This document shows, piece after piece, positions 13,573-25,880 of a stretch of DNA of 64,000 bases. The DNA is taken from NCBI RefSeq assembly GCF_014646055.1, contig NZ_BMMS01000006.1, positions 62,001 through 126,000 on the forward strand, read 5' to 3'. The position numbers and the translations under genes were made by a program. The notes beneath the pieces are model-generated. The model saw only the letters and a list, made by a program, of their open reading frames with translations. It did not search any database and was not told where the DNA came from. The number at the start of each line of letters is the position of its first letter. Within the stretch, counting starts at the first letter, position 1. Source of the stretch: Wenjunlia tyrosinilytica (GTDB lineage Bacteria > Actinomycetota > Actinomycetes > Streptomycetales > Streptomycetaceae).

Positions 13573-14017
13573 CCCCGCCCTCCCGCGCATGGCACCGCGT
13601 GCCGCCGAGCGGCCCCCGATACCGAAGGTGAAGTATGGGGCAAGACCCAGTATCTCCTCGGTGTCCGGCGCGAACTGAGCATGGCTCAGCAGGCCCGGCG
13701 GCAGCGGTGATCCCTCGAGGGCACCGCGTGCCCGTCCACTGCCGCCCTGACCCGCCTCCCCTCGACGCAAATGAGTTGTCCCAGGTCAGGGCTGGAATGA
13801 ACGGCTTCTCCGCCGTCGTTCCGAGCACCCCGGATCCCCCCGCCGAAGGCCGACGGGGGGGTGGTACAAGGCGCGCACAACAGGGGCTCGCGCTCGGCTC
13901 GTAAGGCGCGTGGGTGGCGCTTAGGCGCTGTTGTGGCCGGACATATGCGGGGGGAAGATGCCCCGGAGCCGGGAGCGCCGACCCGGTGCCTCGGGGGAGC
14001 AGAAAGAGGGGACAACG
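13573..14017. other. Non-coding gap upstream of the terpene synthase
   Basis: This 445-bp gap has no convincing gene. It holds a small palindrome CTGAGC-ATG-GCTCAG at 13675-13689 and G/C-rich imperfect hairpins, and presumably the terpene synthase promoter. No clear terminator for the upstream reductase is visible. Confidence 0.5.
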
Positions 14018-15046
14018 ATGCCTCAGGGAACCGAACTCCACATACCTTTCCCACCCGGGATCAGTCCCGACCACGACGCCGCCCGCGAGCGCAATATCGC
14101 CTGGGTCCGTGACATGGGACTCGTCGGCAGTGACGAATCCATGGAGCGCTACCGCTCATGGAGGGTGGCGGAACTCGCCGCCCGCACCAACCCCCGTGCC
14201 ACGGGGGACGACCTCGACCTCATCTGCGGGGTGCTGTCCCTCGCCTTCCTCTTCGACGACCAGTTCGACGGCCCTCTGGGGTGGCAGCCCGACCGCGCCT
14301 CCGGTGTGTGCGGCGCGATGATCTCCGTCATCGACGGTTCCCCCATCGCTCCCGAGTACGAGGGCACCCCGCTGGTGCGCTCCTGGAAGGACCTGTGGCA
14401 GCGGACCGTCCCCGGCATGTCGGACGACTGGCGCTCGCGCGCCGGCAGGAACTTCGCGGCCAACTACTCGGTCTACGTGCAGGAGGCCGAGAACCGCCAC
14501 GGAGGCACCCCTCCGCCTCTCGATGTCTACCTGGACATGCGCCAAAAATCCGTCGACATGCACCCGCTGCTCGACATGGTCGAGCGAGTGGGGCACTTCG
14601 AGCTGACACCGGCCGAGTACTACAGCCCCCATGTCCAGGAGGTCCGGCGGATCGCCGCCGACGTGATCGCGTTCAACAACGACATCTCCTCCCTCGAGAA
14701 GGAGTCGATGCGCGGTGACCCGCACAATCTCGTCCTCGTGCTCATGCGTGAGATGCGGTGCTCGCAGCAGGACGCCATCCAGGAGATCAGCGCCATGGTC
14801 AGGACCCGGATCGAGCGGCTGAGGGTCCTGGAGTCCCAGTTCCAGCGGTCGCCCGCCGGAACCGGCCGTGCCGCCCTCCAACGCGATCACCGGGAGCTCT
14901 TCCTCGACGGCGTCCATGCCTGGATCCGCGGATGCTACGACTGGGAGGCCACCACGGACCGCTACGCCGTCCACACCGCCACCTCCGCCCATGAGCCCGG
15001 CTTCAGCGAGGACCTGATCAGTCCCCGCTGCCAGGTTCGTCGCTGA
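14018..15046 (+). CDS. Class I terpene synthase (sesquiterpene cyclase-like)
   Basis: A 342-residue cyclase. The ATG at 14018 follows AGAGGGG. It has the Mg-binding acidic motif DDQFD (80-84) and the NSE triad NDISSLEKE (221-229), plus a C-terminal DRY pair (ATTDRY), the standard set for bacterial farnesyl-diphosphate cyclases. The N-terminal FPPGISPDHD is also typical. The product cannot be predicted by eye. Its 3' end overlaps the convergent P450 gene by 29 bp, so a cyclase and a P450 of a conservon lie back to back, which suggests, but does not prove, a tailored terpene. Confidence 0.9.
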   Translation: MPQGTELHIPFPPGISPDHDAARERNIAWVRDMGLVGSDESMERYRSWRVAELAARTNPRATGDDLDLICGVLSLAFLFDDQFDGPLGWQPDRASGVCGAMISVIDGSPIAPEYEGTPLVRSWKDLWQRTVPGMSDDWRSRAGRNFAANYSVYVQEAENRHGGTPPPLDVYLDMRQKSVDMHPLLDMVERVGHFELTPAEYYSPHVQEVRRIAADVIAFNNDISSLEKESMRGDPHNLVLVLMREMRCSQQDAIQEISAMVRTRIERLRVLESQFQRSPAGTGRAALQRDHRELFLDGVHAWIRGCYDWEATTDRYAVHTATSAHEPGFSEDLISPRCQVRR

Positions 15047-16568
15047 ACCACCGCGCGACGGCCTTCCACCACGGCCTGCGCCGGGACGGAGGCCGGGACG
15101 GACGCGGGGACGGCATGCCGGCCGGCCCCGCCGGGGGCCCGCCCGGCGACCCGGGGACCGCAGTGGCGGTCACCAGCGGCGGCATCTGCGGCATGGACGC
15201 ACGCATGGAACGCGGGGACCGCACCGGTGGCGCCTGCTCGGGAACGGGCATCGGGGACCGGGGCCCGAACTTCACCGGCAGCGCCGCCAGATGGCGGGTC
15301 CAAGTAGAAGAGCGCCAGGCCAGCTCGGACTCCGGGACCGCCAGCTCGACGTCCGGCAGCCGCGTCAGCAGGATGTCCACGGCCGTGTCGGTGATGGCCC
15401 GTGCCACATCCTGACCGGGGCACTCGTGGGGCCCTCCGCTGAACGACAGGTGGGCGCGGTTGCCGTGCATCGAGGCGCCGAGGTCCGGGCGGATGAGGGG
15501 GTCGACGTTCCCGGCGGCGAGGCCGAGCAGGAGCATGTCCCCGGACCTGATGTGCCGTCCGGCCAGTTCGCTGTCACCCGTGGCCCACCGCGCGGGGAGC
15601 ACGACGGTCGGCGGCTCGTCCCACAGCACCTGCTCGACCGCGTCCTCGAGCGTCATCCGGACGCCCGCGAGCGACGCGCGGAAGCGGTGGTCGGTCAGCA
15701 CCATCCGCACGGTGTTGGCGATCAGGCTGGTGGTGTTCTCGTTCGCGGCCAGCATCACGAGCCACAGGTGGTTGAGCACCTCGTCGTCGGAGAGCCCCGC
15801 GCGGTGCTCCATCAGCCACGACGCCAGATCGGCGCCGGGCTCCTCGTGCCTGCGGGCCACGAGCTGCCGCAGCGTGCTCCTGATGTACTCGTTGCCCTCG
15901 ACCGCCTTCTCCGAGCCCTTGATCAGCTCGAGGGCGGCCTCCACGATCCGCGGCCCGTACTCCTCGGGCATCCCCAGCAGCTCGGTCAGCACGATCATGG
16001 GCAGCTGCTGGGCGTACTGGGTCAGCAGGTCGGCCCGGCCGTCCTCGCAGAAGCCGTCGATGATCTGGTTGGCGAAGCGGGTGACATGGCGCCGGATGCC
16101 CCGGCGGTCGAAGCGCCCGAGGCTGTCGATGACCGCCTCGCGCAGCCGCCGGTGCTCGTCCCCGTCCGCGGACACGCAGTCGGGACGCCAGCCGATCACC
16201 GGCAGGAGGGGCGAATCCTGGGGGACCCTGCCCTCACGCAGCTCGCGCCACCTGCGCGAGTCACGGGAGAACCGGGTGGGGGTGCGGACGACCTCGAGGA
16301 TCTCCCGGTAGCCGAGGACCAGCCACGCCGGGATGTCCCCGGTGAGCAGGACCGGGGCCACTTCGCCGTGCTGGGCGCGCAGCCGGGCGTAGACGCCCAT
16401 CGCATCGCTCTCGTGCTGCGGTCCGAACAACCGCACGGGTGCCTTGCCGTCGGTGTCCCACTGGTGGGCCGGGCAGCCGGGAGGGGGGCCGGCGGACAGC
16501 GGGCCGGGATGCGCCGCGGCGCCGCGCTGGGTGTGAAGGCGGATGTCGTCGGGGGGCAGGGCGTTCAC
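15018..16568 (-). CDS. CYP157-type cytochrome P450 of a conservon (CvnE), lacking ExxR
   Basis: A 516-residue P450 starting at GTG within a 4-bp GTGA overlap with the GTPase stop. The heme-binding loop FSGGPHECPGQDVAR has ligand Cys383. The I-helix reads NENTT rather than AGxET. The K-helix position reads EQVLW (312-316) in place of the nearly universal ExxR. CYP157 enzymes of Streptomyces conservons are known for exactly this loss (EQSLW in CYP157C1). The last 80 residues are a Pro/Arg-rich low-complexity tail. Substrate and redox partner are unknown. Confidence 0.9.
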   Translation of the reverse strand: MNALPPDDIRLHTQRGAAAHPGPLSAGPPPGCPAHQWDTDGKAPVRLFGPQHESDAMGVYARLRAQHGEVAPVLLTGDIPAWLVLGYREILEVVRTPTRFSRDSRRWRELREGRVPQDSPLLPVIGWRPDCVSADGDEHRRLREAVIDSLGRFDRRGIRRHVTRFANQIIDGFCEDGRADLLTQYAQQLPMIVLTELLGMPEEYGPRIVEAALELIKGSEKAVEGNEYIRSTLRQLVARRHEEPGADLASWLMEHRAGLSDDEVLNHLWLVMLAANENTTSLIANTVRMVLTDHRFRASLAGVRMTLEDAVEQVLWDEPPTVVLPARWATGDSELAGRHIRSGDMLLLGLAAGNVDPLIRPDLGASMHGNRAHLSFSGGPHECPGQDVARAITDTAVDILLTRLPDVELAVPESELAWRSSTWTRHLAALPVKFGPRSPMPVPEQAPPVRSPRSMRASMPQMPPLVTATAVPGSPGGPPAGPAGMPSPRPSRPPSRRRPWWKAVARWFSDEPGSGD

Positions 16569-17185
16569 TTCGGCTCCGGGGTGACGGCGAGGGAGTAGAG
16601 GTAGCGCATCAGCGTCATGAGCACGTCCCGGCTCGACGTCCTCTTGCGGGCGTCGCAGTCGAGCATGGGCACGGACTCGGGCAGGTCCAGGGCCGCCCTC
16701 AACTCCTCCATCGAGTGCACGGGGGCGCCGGGGAAGGTGTTGACGGCGACCACGAACGGGACACCGCGCTCCTCGAGGCGCCCGATCACGTCGAAGCTGA
16801 CCTCCAGGCGGCGGGTGTCGACCAGGACCACGGCGCCCAGGGCTCCCTGGAACAGCCCGTTCCACAGGAACCAGAAGCGCTCCTGGCCGGGAGTGCCGAA
16901 CAGGTACAGCACCAGCTGGTCGTTGATGCTGATCCGGCCGAAGTCCATGGCCACGGTGGTCGAGGTCTTGCGCTCCACACCGGCGGTGTCGTCGACGCCG
17001 ACACCCGCCTGCGTCATCGTCTCCTCGGTGGTCAGCGGTCTGATCTCGCTCACCGAGCCGACCATCGTTGTCTTGCCGACCCCGAAGCCGCCGACGACCA
17101 CTATCTTGACCGCGGCGGTGACCGAGGCGGGCAGGGTGTCCTCGCGGCTCGGACCCGTGTGCCGGTCAGAGCTTTTGCAGTCCAT
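16565..17185 (-). CDS. Conservon small GTPase, CvnD/MglA-like
   Basis: A 206-residue Ras-like GTPase. P-loop VGGFGVGKTT (31-40), G3 FGTPGQERF, and a G4-like VNTF are visible. In conservons it acts with CvnB and CvnC next to the membrane sensor CvnA, in a scheme likened to eukaryotic G-protein switching. It overlaps the DUF742 gene by 20 bp upstream and the P450 by 4 bp downstream, so the set is one operon. Confidence 0.93.
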   Translation of the reverse strand: MDCKSSDRHTGPSREDTLPASVTAAVKIVVVGGFGVGKTTMVGSVSEIRPLTTEETMTQAGVGVDDTAGVERKTSTTVAMDFGRISINDQLVLYLFGTPGQERFWFLWNGLFQGALGAVVLVDTRRLEVSFDVIGRLEERGVPFVVAVNTFPGAPVHSMEELRAALDLPESVPMLDCDARKRTSSRDVLMTLMRYLYSLAVTPEPK

Positions 17186-17525
17186 GCATCACCGCTTCCA
17201 ATAGCTCGACGTCGGGCAGCGACGCGGGAGTGACGGGCGCGCGGGCCTCGACCCGCCCGTCCCCCAACAGGTCGGCGAGCAGCACCTTGACGACGCTGAC
17301 CGGCAGGGCCAGGTATGCCGAGATCTCGGCGAGGGACAAGGGGTACTGGCACATCCGCACGATGGCGGAGTGCTCGGGCAGCATGTCCGGCTGCGGGGCG
17401 GACCGGGACACGATCAGCGAGACAAGGTCGAGCGGTGCCTGCTCGCTCGCGTCGCTGCGGCCGCCGGTGATGATGTACAGCCGCTCGGGCTGTTCTCCTT
17501 CGGACTTGTCCTCCGGTCCGCTCAC
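17166..17525 (-). CDS. Conservon DUF742 protein, CvnC
   Basis: A 119-residue protein with the DUF742 signature: RLYIITGGR, then EHSAIVRMCQYPLSLAEISAYL and SVVKVLLADL with a winged-helix look, ending VELLEAVMHGLQKL. In conservons it bridges the roadblock and GTPase parts. It overlaps both neighbours (4 bp with CvnB, 20 bp with CvnD). Confidence 0.92.
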   Translation of the reverse strand: MSGPEDKSEGEQPERLYIITGGRSDASEQAPLDLVSLIVSRSAPQPDMLPEHSAIVRMCQYPLSLAEISAYLALPVSVVKVLLADLLGDGRVEARAPVTPASLPDVELLEAVMHGLQKL

Positions 17526-17926
17526 GTGACCCGCCCGTCCACTCGCGGCGGGCTGTTGAGGTGGCCGCCGAGCCTGGCCACGAGATCTCGCATGCGCTGG
17601 CCCATCAGGCCCGCGTCCACTCCCTCGTCGGCCAGCACCGCCAGGTAGGCGCCCGTGCCGGCCGCCATCAGATAGAAGAAGCCGCCGCTCATCTCGATCA
17701 CGACCAGGCGCATCCGCCCGTCACCGTGCGGGAGTTCGGACGCCACCGCCACCGAGAGGCTCTGCAGCCCGGCGCACGCGGCGGCGAGCCGGTCGGCGAC
17801 GTCCTCGTCCGTTCCGTACTTCGCGATGCGCAGGCCGTCCGCGGACAGCACCACTACGTGACGGGTCTGGGGAACGCTCGTCGCGAGGTCCTTGAGCATC
17901 CAGTCCATGTCGGGCCGCTGTGTCAC
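17522..17926 (-). CDS. Conservon roadblock/LC7-domain protein, CvnB
   Basis: A 134-residue roadblock/LC7 protein (MDWMLKDLATSVPQTRHVVVLSADGLRIA). The family regulates small GTPases, here presumably CvnD. It lies 2 bp downstream of cvnA and overlaps cvnC by 4 bp. Confidence 0.92.
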   Translation of the reverse strand: MTQRPDMDWMLKDLATSVPQTRHVVVLSADGLRIAKYGTDEDVADRLAAACAGLQSLSVAVASELPHGDGRMRLVVIEMSGGFFYLMAAGTGAYLAVLADEGVDAGLMGQRMRDLVARLGGHLNSPPRVDGRVT

Positions 17927-17928
17927 GG

Positions 17929-19422
17929 TTACTCACTCTCATCCAGTGGCCCGTCGCCATTGCGGCGGACGGGCCCGTCCGTCGGCGCCTCACCGGAAAC
18001 ACCGCTGTGGAAGGCGGCCAGCCAGATACCCGGCTGGACGGGAGGGTCGGCCGGTGCCGGCGTCTCGGGAGCGGTGACAGGGACGGCGGTGGGCGCGGGT
18101 GCGGAGCCCGCGCGGGCGGGGCGGGGCAGCGGAGCCGCGTTGCGGCGGCGGCGCCGCTGGGGCAGACCGTTGGCGGTGCGGCCGGCGATGACCGGCTCGT
18201 CCTCCTCCTGGTTCGCCACCGTGACCGACGCCGGTACGGGCATCGACACGAGTCCGGCTCCCGGGTAGGTGTCGGGCATGGGGGCCGTGGTGATCACGTC
18301 CCGGGGGACGACGAGCACGGCGCGGACGCCTCCGTAGGCGGAGGGCCGCAGCGACACCTGGAAGCGGTTCGACCGCACCAGGCGGCCGACCACGGCCAGA
18401 CCGAGCCGGGGCGCCTCACCGAGGTCGGTCAGGTCCAGCCCGATCGAGGCCTGGGCCAGCACGCGTTCGGCCCGGTTCAGGGCCTCCTCGGTCAGGCCGA
18501 CGCCGGCGTCCTCGATCTCCACGGCGATGCCGGACTGCACCTCGGTGGCCGTCAGATGCACACGGGTGTGCGGCGGCGAGTACCGGGTGGCGTTGTCCAG
18601 CAGCTCGGCGAGGGCGTGGATGAGCGGCTCGACGGTGGGACCGAGCACGGCGACGTTCGCGACCGAGTGCAGGTCCACCCGGCGGTAGTCGAGGATCCTC
18701 GACATCGCTCCGCGCAGCACGCTGAACAGGGTCACATTCTTCAGCCACTGCCGACCCGGCCGGGCGCCGCCGAGGACCGCGATGCTGTCCGCGAGGCGGC
18801 CGATCAGCGAGTTGCCGTGGTCGACGTGCAGGAGGTCGCCGAAGACCGCGGCGTCGTTGCCGTGCCGGTGCTGCATCTCCCGCAGGTCCTGGGCCTGCTG
18901 GTGGACGATGGCCTGCACACGGCGGGCGATGTTGACGAACGCCCGCTGCGCGGAGTCCCGGAGCTCCTCCTCCGCGACCACGGCATCCACGAAGGTGCGC
19001 ACCACCCGCTGGTGCGCCGCCTGGAACTGCGAGTCGACCTCGAGCTCGGAGCAAGAGGCGCGCAGCACCTGCTCGGGGTGCTCTCCCCGCTGCAGCCGGG
19101 CCACCGCGTCCGGCAGCACGACCTCGGCCAGCCGGGCGGTCTCCGCCGCCTGGTTGGCGAGCAGGCGCCTGAACTCGGCCTCCTGCGCGGCACATCGGTG
19201 ACGCAGAGCGGCATTGGTCCGGCCCCGGCGCACGGCCTCGGCCGACACGGCGGCCAGCAGCGCGACGGCCACCGCCCCGCACCAGGCGACGGGAGCGCGC
19301 GCCCCGGCGGAGACGACGGGCACGGCGAAGGCGGTGAAGACCGCCATGACGGCAGGGGGGAGCAGCCATATGCGAGCGGAAGCGGGCCGTTGGACTCCGG
19401 GTGACGATCCAGCGCGAACCAT
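17929..19422 (-). CDS. Conservon sensor histidine-kinase-like protein, CvnA
   Basis: A 497-residue membrane sensor. The ATG at 19422 has GAGGGT 8 bp upstream. Two membrane segments lie near residues 18-62, separated by a very short loop, so the sensor part is nearly all internal. A helical region follows, then an HATPase_c domain with N-box HALAELLDNATRYSPP and G-box EDAGVGL, and a Pro/Ala/Arg-rich tail of about 100 residues. The classic phospho-acceptor H-box is not obvious, as is usual for CvnA. It heads the cvnABCD-P450 operon. Confidence 0.9.
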   Translation of the reverse strand: MVRAGSSPGVQRPASARIWLLPPAVMAVFTAFAVPVVSAGARAPVAWCGAVAVALLAAVSAEAVRRGRTNAALRHRCAAQEAEFRRLLANQAAETARLAEVVLPDAVARLQRGEHPEQVLRASCSELEVDSQFQAAHQRVVRTFVDAVVAEEELRDSAQRAFVNIARRVQAIVHQQAQDLREMQHRHGNDAAVFGDLLHVDHGNSLIGRLADSIAVLGGARPGRQWLKNVTLFSVLRGAMSRILDYRRVDLHSVANVAVLGPTVEPLIHALAELLDNATRYSPPHTRVHLTATEVQSGIAVEIEDAGVGLTEEALNRAERVLAQASIGLDLTDLGEAPRLGLAVVGRLVRSNRFQVSLRPSAYGGVRAVLVVPRDVITTAPMPDTYPGAGLVSMPVPASVTVANQEEDEPVIAGRTANGLPQRRRRRNAAPLPRPARAGSAPAPTAVPVTAPETPAPADPPVQPGIWLAAFHSGVSGEAPTDGPVRRNGDGPLDESE

Positions 19423-19741
19423 CTGCACCCTCAGAACAGTTGAATGGATGGAAGGACATGCGGGCTGCGGCGGCATCGGCGGGCCACCGGGCAGATACGT
19501 CGACCGCCCGGCCGCACCCGCGGGACCCCGTGTCGTAGCGGATGCGGGCAGCGTCGCGCGCCCGCGGACCCGAAGGCCGCGGACCACCGGGACCTGTGGA
19601 CCCGCCCGGTCTGCGGCACCGGCCACAGCGAGCATGCGCATGGCGTAATCGCGTCAAGGCGCTGCGCCACAAGCCAGGAGCATAGACCGTTCCGCTTCGA
19701 CCAAGAGGCCCGTCTCTCTGAATGATCGTTTTTTCAGGTGG

Positions 19742-20347: not shown

Positions 20348-20688
20348 GACGCCTCTTCCCTTCCTCCGCCGCCGATCTCGCGAGATGGGCGCTGAGATCC
20401 GCTGACTTTCGCCGACTGAATTATTGGGTTCGCTGAGGAAGAGACTACGAGGCATTGCGGACAGCTCCGGTCCGCAATGCCGTCCGGCGAGGTGCGGCCG
20501 GTGCCGTCCGGTGCCGGGGCGAACCGGGAACCGGCCGCCTGGCTGGGGCGCGAGCCGATGGGCGGGTGAACGCGGGGGATCCCGGGTGGGCGGTCCAGGG
20601 GGCCGGGGTGCCACGGGGCCGGGGTGCCGTTGGAACCGCCCGCCCGGCGGAACCGTTCCCCTGGGGGGACGGCGACGAGGGGGCGGGG

Positions 20689-22062
20689 ATGGTCGAGCTG
20701 GTTCCAGGCGCCAACAGGCCGATGCCGGAGGGCGCCGTCTCAATCCGGGTGCGGGGCCCGTTCGACGTGTCCGTCCTCATCACCGGTGACGACGGGAAGG
20801 TGGCGGGCGACGGCGACTTCGTCTTCTACAACCAGCCGTCCGCCCCCGGCGCCCGGCTGAGCGGAGACACGGTGACCGTGGACCCCCGGCGGCTGCGTCC
20901 GGGGGCCGGGCGGGTGACCGTGGTCGTCGCCGCCGCAGCCACCGGCACCCCGCTCGGTCGACTGCCCGCCCCGGCCATGGTGGTCACCGGTGGCGGTGGG
21001 ACGGTCCTGGCCCGGTTCACCCCGCCGCGCCCGACAGTTGAGAGGGTCCTGCTCGTCGCCGAGCTCTACCGGCGCGCAGACCAGTGGAAGCTGCGGGCCC
21101 TCGGACACGGCTATGCGGAGGGCCTGGCCGCCCTCGCCCGTGACTTCGGCGTCGACGTCGAGGAAGAGGCCGAGCCCGAGCGCGAGGCCGAGCCCGAGCG
21201 GTACGGCGGGCAGCCGGGAGCGGGGCACGGCTGGCAGTCGGCCGTGGGGTACGGCGGGCAGCCGGGCGGGGCGGCCGACGGCCCGGACGGCTTCCTCCAC
21301 CTCGTCAACGCCGAACGCTCCCGGGTGGGCGCCCCACCGGTGACCGTCGACCCGAGGCTGGCCACCGCGGCCCGTACCCACGCGTCGGCCATGGCCGCCC
21401 AGGGCCTCCTCGCCATCGAGGGCCCCGACGGGACGTCGGTCTTCCACCGCGTGGCCGCCGGCGGCTACGCCTACCTCTCCATCGCCGAGCAGATCGTCTC
21501 CGGGCCGCGTACCCCGGGCGAGTTCGTGTCCTACTGCCTGGGCGAGGGGAAGTACACCGGCACCTTCCACGACCGGGCGTTCACGCAGGTGGGGATCGGC
21601 AGCGCCGTGGGCGGCCGGTCCGGGGACGTCTACTGGACCGCGCTGTGGGCCCGGCCGTTCACCGCGGCGGGCCTGGCCGATGTGGCACGGGAGGTGATCG
21701 CGCTCACCAACGCCGAACGGGCGGGTGCCGGGCTGGCGCCGCTGGCCCCCGACATGCGCCTGACCGCGGCGGCGCAGGGCCACAGCGACGACATGGTCAC
21801 CCGTGACTTCTACTCCCACACCACGCCGGAGGGCCGTGAACCGTGGGACCGGGCCGCCTCCGCCGGATGCGCCCACCGCGGCATCGGCGAGAACATCGCC
21901 TGCGGCCAGCGCACCCCCGCCGAAGTGGTCCTGGGGTGGATGAACAGCCCGGGCCACCGCGCCAACATCCTCAAACCCGACTTCACGCACATCGGCATCG
22001 GGTACGCCACCGGCAGCCGTGCGGGCACCTACTGGACCCAGCTGTTCGGCATGGCCCGCTGA
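20689..22062 (+). CDS. TerD-domain protein fused to two CAP (SCP/PR1) domains
   Basis: A 457-residue protein from the ATG at 20689, after a G-rich leader; the longer frame upstream is low-complexity and I exclude it. Residues 1-170 are TerD-like (LVPGANRPMPEG, ISIRVRG-type strand, DGDFVFYNQPSAPG, VERVLLVAELYRR), a Ca-binding tellurium-resistance fold. A Glu/Gln/Gly-rich linker leads to CAP domain 1 (about 203-330), whose active-site histidines look partly lost. CAP domain 2 (about 340-457) is canonical: QGHSDDMVTRDFYSHTTPEG, GIGENIA, MNSPGHRANIL. No signal peptide is seen although CAP domains usually act outside the cell. Confidence 0.82.
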   Translation: MVELVPGANRPMPEGAVSIRVRGPFDVSVLITGDDGKVAGDGDFVFYNQPSAPGARLSGDTVTVDPRRLRPGAGRVTVVVAAAATGTPLGRLPAPAMVVTGGGGTVLARFTPPRPTVERVLLVAELYRRADQWKLRALGHGYAEGLAALARDFGVDVEEEAEPEREAEPERYGGQPGAGHGWQSAVGYGGQPGGAADGPDGFLHLVNAERSRVGAPPVTVDPRLATAARTHASAMAAQGLLAIEGPDGTSVFHRVAAGGYAYLSIAEQIVSGPRTPGEFVSYCLGEGKYTGTFHDRAFTQVGIGSAVGGRSGDVYWTALWARPFTAAGLADVAREVIALTNAERAGAGLAPLAPDMRLTAAAQGHSDDMVTRDFYSHTTPEGREPWDRAASAGCAHRGIGENIACGQRTPAEVVLGWMNSPGHRANILKPDFTHIGIGYATGSRAGTYWTQLFGMAR

Positions 22063-22507: not shown

Positions 22508-25000
22508 ATGGAGGAGTTGGGGGCGGACGATCCCGGGGAGGTCGGCGGGTACCGGGTGCGGGGGCGGCTGGGGATGGGCGGGATGGGGGCGGTCTATCTC
22601 GCCTACACCCGTGGTGGCCAGGCCGTCGCCCTGAAGGTGATCCGGCGGGAGTTCGCCCAGGACCTGGAGTTCCGTCGGCGGTTCACCCGTGAGGCCGAGG
22701 CGGCCCGGCGTGTGCAGGGGCCCTACACCGCGGCCGTGGTGGACAGCAATACGGAGGGGCCGCAGCCGTGGCTCGCCAGCGCCTATGTGCCCGGGCCCTC
22801 GCTCAGCGCCGCCGTGCGCCGGCATGGACCGCTGCCCCTGCCGACGGTGTTCCAGCTGACGGCCGGAGTGGCCGAGGCGCTCCAGTCCATCCACAGGGTG
22901 GGGGTGGTCCACCGGGATCTGAAGCCCTCCAATGTGCTGCTGGCCTCGGACGGGCCCCGCGTCATCGACTTCGGCATCGCCCGGGCGGCGGACGCCACGG
23001 CGTTGACCGGATCGGACGCCCGACTGGGCACGCCCGCCTATATGGCGCCGGAACAGATCTCCGGCGGTGATGTGGGCCCAGCGCTGGATGTCTTCGCGCT
23101 GGGCCTGCTGACGTACTTCGCCGCCACCGCGGGCCATCCGTTCGGTGAGGGGAGCGGGCATGCGCTGCTGTACCGGATCGTGGCCGAGCAGCCGGACCTG
23201 AGCGCCTGCCCGGCCGAGCTGCGGGATCTGGTCACCGCCTGCCTGGCGAAGCAACCGCACGAGCGGCCCACTCCCTCCGAAGTGATCGACCTCTGCGCCG
23301 AACGGGCGGGTGAGGGGGTACTGGAGAGGGTGTCGCATGGGTGGCTCCCACCGGCGGTGGCCGGGCAGGTGCCGCGGCGGGAGCCGACGCCCCATCCCAG
23401 CCCCGTGCCGGCGGATGTTCCGCCGGTGGCCCCTGCGGTCCTCCCACCGGTTGCCCCTCTGGTTGTCGCCCCGCCGCCCTCTGCTGCCCCGCCGCCCTCT
23501 CCTGCCCAGGCGGCCGACCCACCCACGCGGCCCCCGCTGTCCCCGGCCCCGGTCCCCACCCCCTCGCCCGAGCGGAGCGGGCGAAGGTCCCCGGCACGGA
23601 TCGCCGGTGCGCTGCTTGCGGCTCTGGTCGTCATCGGCGGGGCGACATTCGCCGTCGTTCAGCTCACCGGGGACGGCAAGGGCGAGGGCAGCGGTGGCAA
23701 CCCCGCGGCGGGAGGGAAGCCCCTGGGCGACATCGTCGTCGCCGGGAAGCCTGTCACCGGGTCACGGCGCCTGGATGACAAGGGGACAACCGTGCCCTAC
23801 CAGCGCACCTACACCGCGGGCGAGTTGTACTCCTCCGTCACCGGCTTCCGTTCGCGTGCCTACGGGTCCAGCCAGCTCGAGGCGATGTTCCAGTCCGTCC
23901 TCGACGGCACGGACGGACGGCTGAGCAAGTCGTCCGGACCGGGCAACGTGGTGACGACGATCGACCCTTCCGTCCAGAAGGCGGCCTTCGAGGCGCTGGG
24001 CGACAAGAAGGGCGCGGCCGTGGCGATCGACCCGTCCAACGGGGCCATCCTCGGGCTGGTCAGCACGCCCTCGTACGACCCGTCGGTCTTCAGCGGGAAC
24101 AGCACGTCGGACAAGGCCAGTTGGACGAAGCTCAACGGGGACGCCACCGGTCCGCTGCGCAACCGCGCCCTGCGCGAGACCTATCCCCCCGGCGCCACCT
24201 TCCAACTGGTGGCGGCAGCGGCGGCGTTGGAGAGCGGCCTGTACCGGTCGGTCGACGACAGGACCGACAGCCCGGATCCCTATGTCCTTCCCCGGACCAG
24301 CACCCAGGTCACGAGCGGCGACACCTCGGGCGCCTGCGCGAACGCCAGCCTGCGCACCGCGCTCGTCCTCTCCTGCTCCAACGTCTTCGCGAAGGCGGCC
24401 GCCACGCTCGGGGAGGACAAGGTGAGGGCGACCGCGGAGAAGTTCGGCTTCAACACCGAGAAGCCGAAGGTGCCCGTGGCGGCCGCGCAGAGCGTCTTCC
24501 CGGAGGGGATGCGGTCGGCGGAGGTGGCGCTGTCGGGCCTCGGGCAGTTTGAGGTGCGGGCGACGCCGCTCCAAATGGCCATGGTCTCCTCGGCGCTGGC
24601 GAACGGCGGCAAGCTGTTCTCACCGCACATGGTGGCGCGGCTGACCGACTCACGCGGCAGGACGCTGCGGACGTACGGAGGCTCCAAGCCCTCGCAGGTG
24701 GTCAGCGCGAACACGGCGAGCGAGCTGCGCAAGGCGATGGTCGACGTCGTCATGGACGGCACGGGCGGGGGCGTCCGCCTCCACGACACCCTGGTCGGCG
24801 GCAAGCCCGGCATCACCCAGACCTCCGAGGGAGGCCGACAGGCGCGGTACACCTGGTTCACCTCCTACGCCCAACGCGGCACGAACGGCAAGGAAGTGGC
24901 CGTGGCGGTGGTCGTGGAGGACCCGTCACCCACCTCCGCCGCCGACGGCGGCCTGGCCGCCCGGATCACCAAACGAACGATTTCGGCGGCCTTCGACTGA
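22508..25000 (+). CDS. Transmembrane Ser/Thr kinase fused to a catalytically dead penicillin-binding domain
   Basis: An 830-residue fusion. Residues 14-270 are an intact Hanks-type kinase: GMGGMGAVY P-loop, Lys43 (ALKVI), HRDLKPSN with Asp137, DFG 154-156 and GTPAYMAPEQ. A Pro-rich linker (280-360) leads to one membrane helix (about 365-386), then an external PbpA-like transpeptidase domain (about 400-830). Its motifs are all altered: SxxK is ATFQ (563-566, in YPPGATFQL), SxN is SCS (622-624) and KTG is KPG (766-768). It should therefore not acylate with beta-lactams in the normal way. In related bacteria kinase and PbpA are separate genes and the kinase senses wall fragments by PASTA domains. 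Here a pseudo-PBP takes that place, probably as a sensor. Confidence 0.93.
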   Translation: MEELGADDPGEVGGYRVRGRLGMGGMGAVYLAYTRGGQAVALKVIRREFAQDLEFRRRFTREAEAARRVQGPYTAAVVDSNTEGPQPWLASAYVPGPSLSAAVRRHGPLPLPTVFQLTAGVAEALQSIHRVGVVHRDLKPSNVLLASDGPRVIDFGIARAADATALTGSDARLGTPAYMAPEQISGGDVGPALDVFALGLLTYFAATAGHPFGEGSGHALLYRIVAEQPDLSACPAELRDLVTACLAKQPHERPTPSEVIDLCAERAGEGVLERVSHGWLPPAVAGQVPRREPTPHPSPVPADVPPVAPAVLPPVAPLVVAPPPSAAPPPSPAQAADPPTRPPLSPAPVPTPSPERSGRRSPARIAGALLAALVVIGGATFAVVQLTGDGKGEGSGGNPAAGGKPLGDIVVAGKPVTGSRRLDDKGTTVPYQRTYTAGELYSSVTGFRSRAYGSSQLEAMFQSVLDGTDGRLSKSSGPGNVVTTIDPSVQKAAFEALGDKKGAAVAIDPSNGAILGLVSTPSYDPSVFSGNSTSDKASWTKLNGDATGPLRNRALRETYPPGATFQLVAAAAALESGLYRSVDDRTDSPDPYVLPRTSTQVTSGDTSGACANASLRTALVLSCSNVFAKAAATLGEDKVRATAEKFGFNTEKPKVPVAAAQSVFPEGMRSAEVALSGLGQFEVRATPLQMAMVSSALANGGKLFSPHMVARLTDSRGRTLRTYGGSKPSQVVSANTASELRKAMVDVVMDGTGGGVRLHDTLVGGKPGITQTSEGGRQARYTWFTSYAQRGTNGKEVAVAVVVEDPSPTSAADGGLAARITKRTISAAFD

Positions 25001-25204: not shown

Positions 25205-25880
25205 GCGGCCGGCCAGTTCGACGGCCTGCGCCACCGCCGCCACCACGGACACGGCTTCTACAACGGCACCCCGGACGCCGAGATCGCCGAGGGCAGCCCG
25301 GCGCTGGGCATCCAGCGCTGGGCCGAACGCGGCATCGTCACCCGAGGGCTCGTCCTCGATGTGAGCCGGTTCCGGCGGGAGACGGGGCGGCCGATCGACC
25401 ACGAGCGCGCAGAGCACCTGGACGCGGAGTCGCTGAGCGCCACCGCGCGAGCCCAGGCCGTCCACCCCCGCCCGGGTGACGCCCTCCTCCCGCACACCGA
25501 CTGGCGCAGTGGTAGCTCGGCCTCGACTCGGCAGCGCAGCGGCGGGTCCGCGAGCCCCGCCGATTCACCGGCGTCGACCAGGACCATGACGTCCTCGCCT
25601 GGCTGTGGGACCACCGTTTCGCCGTGATCGCCGCCGACACCTTCGCCTTCGAGGCACTCCCCGCCCGGACCGGCTCCCCCTTCGGCGGCGGGACCGACAG
25701 CGGCATGATGCACCAGCGCCTCATCGCCCTCCTGGGCTTCGCGATCGGCGAGCTGTGGCGCCTGACCCCCCGGCCGAAGCCTGCGCGAGCGACCACCGCT
25801 GGACCTGCCAACTCGTAGCCGCGCCTTTGAACCTCCCGGGCGCCGCGGGCTCCCCCGCCAACGCCACCGCGATCCGCTGA
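25205..25880 (+). pseudogene. Frameshifted remnant of a cyclase-family (kynurenine-formamidase-like) gene
   Basis: Pieces of one cyclase-family protein are read in three frames in the right order: QFDGLRHRRHHGHGFYNGTP and RWAERGIVTRGLVLDVSRF (25214-25512), then an in-frame TAG at 25513 where WYLGLD is expected, then WLWDHRFAVIAADTFAFEAL and MMHQRLIALLGFAIGELWRL (to about 25764), and finally QLVAAPLNLPGAAGSPANAT ending at a stop at 25880. At least two frameshifts, one nonsense change and loss of the N-terminal third make it non-functional. It abuts the permease remnant. Confidence 0.75.

Follow-up and report, generated by a model that had tools for sequence, protein, structure and literature searches.

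The window, a stretch of 64,000 nucleotides from the soil actinobacterium Wenjunlia tyrosinilytica, carries at 22508..25000 (+) an ATG-initiated open reading frame that encodes a single protein of 830 amino acids, which the translation and Pfam matches describe as a receptor-type Ser/Thr kinase with a pseudo-transpeptidase ectodomain. A Hanks-type kinase domain of the AfsK-like subfamily with complete catalytic motifs (residues 15-260, 22550..23287 (+); Pfam Pkinase, 1.8e-42) is followed by a proline-rich juxtamembrane linker (about residues 275-364, 23330..23599 (+)) and a single transmembrane helix of the kinase-family type (about residues 365-386, 23600..23665 (+)). The remainder consists of PBP_dimer_2, the PbpA dimerisation/pedestal domain (residues 407-473, 23726..23926 (+); 1.3e-14), and a non-catalytic transpeptidase domain (residues 502-824, 24011..24979 (+); 1e-44). 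All three Pfam matches lie far above their cut-offs. Those in this last part (54.6 vs 27 bits for PBP_dimer_2 and 153.4 vs 22.1 bits for Transpeptidase, with curated cut-offs) place it in the PbpA-type PBP fold, and its best solved relatives are the M. tuberculosis PbpA structures 3lo7 and 3un7 (E 1.9e-52). A chance reading frame is ruled out by the highly significant matches of both domains, an open stretch of 843 codons, and a third-position GC content (GC3) of 0.93 in the PBP part. The hydrophobic helix is preceded by the arginine-containing sequence RSGRRSPAR, which places the kinase in the cytoplasm and the PBP part outside. The membrane anchor of the PBP family itself is missing from the fusion, as shown by comparison with the standalone proteins L009-L012; these four best contig matches are standalone, intact PBPs.

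Directly upstream of the fusion gene, positions 20455-22062 (+) contain a TerD domain and then CAP/SCP matches in two stretches, and positions 25205-25820 (+), just downstream, contain the remains of a cyclase-family gene (PF04199, continued in another frame) that is apparently a pseudogene. At 13931-19641, a terpene-cyclase-like protein with the motifs DDQFDG and NDISSLEKE adjoins a P450, a small GTPase, and a histidine-kinase-like ATPase, a gene set that resembles a Streptomyces conservon with a terpene gene.

The kinase half contains the glycine-rich loop GMGGMG (residues 22-27), the catalytic Lys43, HRDLKPSN (residues 135-142, with Asp137), DFG (residues 154-156), and APEQ (residue 180), and thus belongs by sequence to the Hanks-type Ser/Thr kinases; the description of an active-looking kinase in the first-pass annotation stands. 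The match to the AfsK equivalog model NF053615 of NCBIfam reaches 285 bits over residues 1-368 only, vs the required 1300, so that by its profile scores the protein is a kinase-domain relative of AfsK, not AfsK. The PASTA kinase model NF033483 is matched with 203 bits, vs a cut-off of 450, in the kinase part only, and the Pfam PASTA domain is absent. The closest paralogue of the kinase in its own genome is C32:20499 (62%), and in this genome and its congener the kinases of the AfsK-like set end in many different sensors, beta-propellers among them. L152 and L173, the AfsK-like proteins closest to the fusion kinase, have an unnamed C-terminal sensor (LPAGY...) with two cysteines, found in both genomes of the genus.

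Loss of the transpeptidase active site

Alignment with M. tuberculosis PbpA and relatives confirmed the first-pass readings of the three catalytic motifs, namely ATFQ at the SxxK position (residues 563-566, 24194..24205 (+)), SCS at the SxN position (residues 622-624, 24371..24379 (+)), and KPGI at the KTGT position (residues 766-769, 24803..24814 (+)). The corresponding substitutions are S563A, K566Q, N624S, and T767P, together with T769I, A770T, and G773S, while Ser622 of SxN and Lys766 of KTGT are retained. With ATFQ, SCS, and KPG in place of SxxK, SxN, and KTG in the alignment of all relatives, the ectodomain falls outside the class B PBP transpeptidases, and the earlier view of a dead ectodomain with a preserved fold agrees with the two Pfam domains, the match to 3lo7/3un7, and the loss of the catalytic Ser and Lys. 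The catalytic motifs are intact in all 47 of the 47 close standalone relatives; the catalytic Ser is present in 97/97 active-type relatives and the catalytic Lys in 96/97, vs 0/10 for either residue in the dead proteins (the fusion and nine lipoproteins described below). Acylation of the ectodomain by penicillin or substrate would not be possible, and covalent penicillin binding is an expected negative, since residue 563 offers no nucleophile. The stretch from Cys610 to Cys623 (24335..24376 (+)) is bounded by two cysteines that are conserved in all active and dead relatives examined.

The substitutions are not spread evenly over the domain. When conserved sites are defined as those kept in at least 93% of 100 PbpA-type relatives, 111 such sites are obtained, of which the fusion has changed 17 and kept 94. 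The changed sites comprise 10 of the 27 near the motifs vs 7 of the 84 elsewhere (Fisher p 0.001, with motif surroundings of about ±7 to 10); the clustering persists with a narrower range of ±5 (p 0.018), and is weaker when invariant sites of the standalone group alone are used (p 0.03, or 0.13 for ±5). Identity to the standalone consensus is 58-70% over residues 404-720 and only 37-50% over residues 721-830, a level of conservation below that of the KTG and C-terminal parts within the canonical PbpA group. Judged from the clustering of changes at the active site and the poorer identity of residues 721-830, the catalytic end of the fusion is relaxed and the remainder is held. Structure prediction from a five-row alignment gave a pLDDT of 33 and no interpretable model.

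Origin and relatives of the PBP half

The PBP half most resembles a standalone PbpA paralogue that is common in Streptomyces, with up to 60-61% identity, vs 48-49% to the canonical PbpA of its own genome, the gene of which adjoins that of the genome's retained PASTA kinase PknB (C8). The fused stretch starts at PLGDIVVAG, right after the membrane anchor and juxtamembrane stretch of the standalone protein. Pairwise dN/dS between the fusion and active PBPs is about 0.53, a value near saturation and affected by G+C bias that is informative only in being below 1.

A phylogeny of 101 PBPs placed the fusion beside a protein from genome G025 with ETFQ and SCA at the first two motifs. Searches with this protein, and then with a profile, gathered further dead relatives, giving nine lipoprotein-like PbpA relatives (L222, L231, L232, L233, L260, and L265-L268), one in each of nine other Streptomycetaceae genomes, all of which lack both catalytic residues, Ser and Lys. 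Their genes include those in L222 (3045-4442, +), L260 (5151-6497, -), L261 (5256-6689, -), L262 (5105-6448, +), and L263 (5088-6455, -). The translations of all nine dead lipoproteins have a signal peptide with a lipobox-like cysteine at its end, and in the five that were scanned Pfam still matches Transpeptidase and PBP_dimer_2. The residues at the catalytic Ser position in the nine are E, E, G, A, A, A, T, A, and G, and those at the Lys position are Q, H, Q, S, S, S, S, S, and H.

The fusion groups with five of the lipoproteins with 99/94 support and in 100% of bootstrap trees, and with all nine, when the motif columns are masked, with 97/89 support and in 99% of bootstrap trees; clade support by ultrafast bootstrap is thus 97-99%. 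Pro430 and Arg448 are common to all ten dead proteins and are absent or rare in the 97 active-type relatives, and the dead-clade members aligned share a loop deletion before VVTTIDP. However, a topology that places the fusion among the active standalone PBPs, apart from the dead lipoproteins, was not rejected by the AU test (p 0.104). In plain identity the fusion is closer to active PBPs, at 60%, vs 44-48% for the dead lipoproteins, and its terminal branch is long (0.56-0.61). The evidence that the ectodomain belongs to a small clade of dead PbpA-like proteins is therefore good but not conclusive. Between dead lipoproteins, dN/dS (NG86) is 0.31-0.52, similar to the value of 0.36 for an active PbpA pair; no shared neighbourhood was seen around the dead lipoprotein genes. 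At least two lipoprotein genes look damaged, L267 at its C-terminus and L221 by a stop. The latter (G025:C21:10974-12227) is a tandem copy of L222 on the same contig, and its stop codon coincides exactly with the position of the catalytic Ser. A degenerate PBP with STFT, GCD, and TSG (L209, G017:C88:28127-29425, -) belongs to another PbpA-like paralogue group and apparently represents an independent loss. The clade of dead lipoproteins is apparently previously undescribed, and a literature search of incomplete coverage yielded no description of PBPs as pseudoenzymes and none of a kinase fused to a transpeptidase.

The outer domain was also used as a query in 61 relatives, 395 Streptomycetaceae, 393 Streptomyces, and 351 Actinomycetes, samples that overlap, and no second match above 61% identity, and no second fusion, was found among them. 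In 223 loci fetched, including those with the longest open frames, a two-domain frame was present only in copies of the window's own locus. Long open frames of 700-1400 codons upstream of many PBP matches were rejected as fusions and attributed to G+C-rich read-through; 0 of 40 inspected regions, most of them picked for such frames, had an in-frame kinase. Viral contigs contained no relative of the fusion, a plasmid search returned chiefly matches of kinase length and none spanning most of the gene, and the congener G001 lacks both the fusion and the standalone paralogue, with a neighbourhood that is not syntenic. By these searches with the outer domain, the kinase-PBP architecture is known so far from one genome alone, and it cannot be regarded as an established conserved system. 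There are consequently no fusion orthologues in which conservation of AxxQ and KPG could be compared, and the dead lipoproteins vary at the catalytic Ser (E/G/A/T) and Lys (Q/H/S) positions. Intact motifs, which in orthologues would have weakened the idea of a binding domain, do occur in the nearest PBPs, but these are standalone enzymes and not orthologues of the fusion.

Possible roles of the ectodomain

We consider with moderate confidence that the protein is a receptor kinase that uses a pseudo-transpeptidase as a docking or sensing module for wall synthesis, with the PBP part derived from the dead PbpA-like clade. An AfsK-like kinase with its membrane helix would have been joined to the extracellular portion of a PbpA-type class B PBP, with the junction at a natural domain boundary (..PLGDIVVAG..). 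The ectodomain may bind, without reaction, something at wall-synthesis sites, the candidates being nascent peptidoglycan and a partner, for instance a SEDS/PBP complex, contacted through the retained pedestal and transpeptidase body, and this binding would place or dimerise the kinase, allowing trans-autophosphorylation and a signal inside the cell. Purifying selection for a non-catalytic role is likely, given that the fold, both cysteines, and the coding signatures are retained and that the losses lie around the active site; given its apparent membership of a clade of similarly dead enzymes, the ectodomain has probably been retained for binding and sensing rather than being in decay.

It is unlikely that the PBP module is purely a tag that positions the kinase at growth sites or holds its dimer together, with no regulated sensing. 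PBP_dimer_2 is retained in both the fusion and the lipoproteins, and the PknB ectodomain is needed chiefly for localisation (PMC3145798). A mere tag, however, leaves the loss of the catalytic centre unexplained if an intact PBP module would serve, and neither the membrane anchor nor the juxtamembrane stretch of the PBP remains in the fusion. In PBPs, it is this anchor and stretch that usually contact SEDS partners.

Somewhat less probable is a kinase switched by non-covalent binding of D-Ala-D-Ala stem peptides or beta-lactams in the dead groove, although the PbpA fold and groove region are recognisable, Ser622 and Lys766 are kept, and PASTA kinases are precedents for the sensing of wall fragments. 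In SxxK enzymes, peptides lie along the beta3 strand, and the KTGT threonines normally hold the carboxylate of the ligand. With Ser, Lys, Asn, and both KTGT threonines replaced, covalent capture and the usual carboxylate contacts are gone, T767P also disturbs the beta3 strand, and the replacement residues vary among the dead relatives, unlike those of a conserved ligand site. Beta-lactams, one of the ligands proposed by the first-pass annotation, are thus disfavoured, because both KTGT threonines (T767P, T769I) are lost besides Ser and Lys; a protein partner, or a different part of peptidoglycan, is the more plausible ligand.

A chance recent fusion that drifts without function while its PBP half decays would fit the occurrence in one genome only, the decayed cyclase gene directly downstream (25205-25820), the far lower conservation of residues 721-830 than of the remainder, and the long terminal branch (0.56-0.61). 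We consider it improbable, since the frame remains open over 843 codons with a GC3 of 0.93 across the PBP part, the losses cluster at the active site, 94 of the 111 family-wide conserved sites are kept, and related dead lipoproteins persist in nine genomes; the earlier preference for selection over decay is strengthened by this clade and this clustering. An assembly or frame artefact joining two genes, conceivable in a draft of 172 contigs, is highly improbable, as the junction is in frame and exactly at a domain boundary with no stop or frameshift, and the genome holds no near-identical duplicate of either half that an assembler could have confused with it.

The existence of the lipoproteins suggests that non-catalytic PBPs form a class in Streptomycetaceae, and this pseudo-transpeptidase clade is the more general finding, with the fusion as a variant among receptor kinases. 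More tentatively, the whole family might consist of non-catalytic sensors or regulators of wall synthesis, usually lipoproteins with separate partners and here fused to a receptor kinase; the protein would then represent a new type of wall-sensing kinase and would point to how the dead lipoproteins signal. The fusion makes signalling by PBP folds without catalysis directly testable.

Comparison with known systems

The fusion shares with the dead PbpA-like lipoproteins its PBP clade in the tree, the N-terminal module boundary, the loss of Ser and Lys, and the retained cysteines, whereas the lipoproteins are lipid-anchored, carry no kinase, and have a shorter KTG region. The order PBP_dimer_2 and Transpeptidase is that of the PbpA class B PBPs (M. 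tuberculosis PbpA, the Streptomyces SCO3847 type, and the second standalone paralogue), from which the fusion differs in lacking the PBP anchor, in being joined to a kinase, and in having lost all catalytic motifs. Streptomyces AfsK-like kinases with beta-propellers or other C-terminal sensors have the same kinase family and general layout, but the sensor module of the fusion is PBP-derived. The penicillin receptors BlaR1 and MecR1 combine an inner protease domain with a sensor that still has its serine and that the drug acylates. The fusion resembles them as a transmembrane receptor with a sensor related to SxxK enzymes, but its sensor lacks Ser and Lys and its inner domain is a kinase.

The reading of wall state by receptor kinases is best known for PASTA repeats. 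Like the PASTA-type kinases PknB, PrkC, and Stk1, the fusion combines a cytoplasmic Hanks kinase, one membrane helix, and an extracellular module related to the cell wall; in contrast to them, its kinase is AfsK-like and not PknB-like, and in place of PASTA repeats it has a whole PbpA-type dimerisation and transpeptidase module. The PASTA ectodomain of PknB binds muropeptides and localises the kinase (PMC3145798), and the PBP module would do in the fusion what the repeats do in PknB, so that a kinase with a dead wall-building enzyme as its ectodomain would be a second solution beside PASTA repeats.
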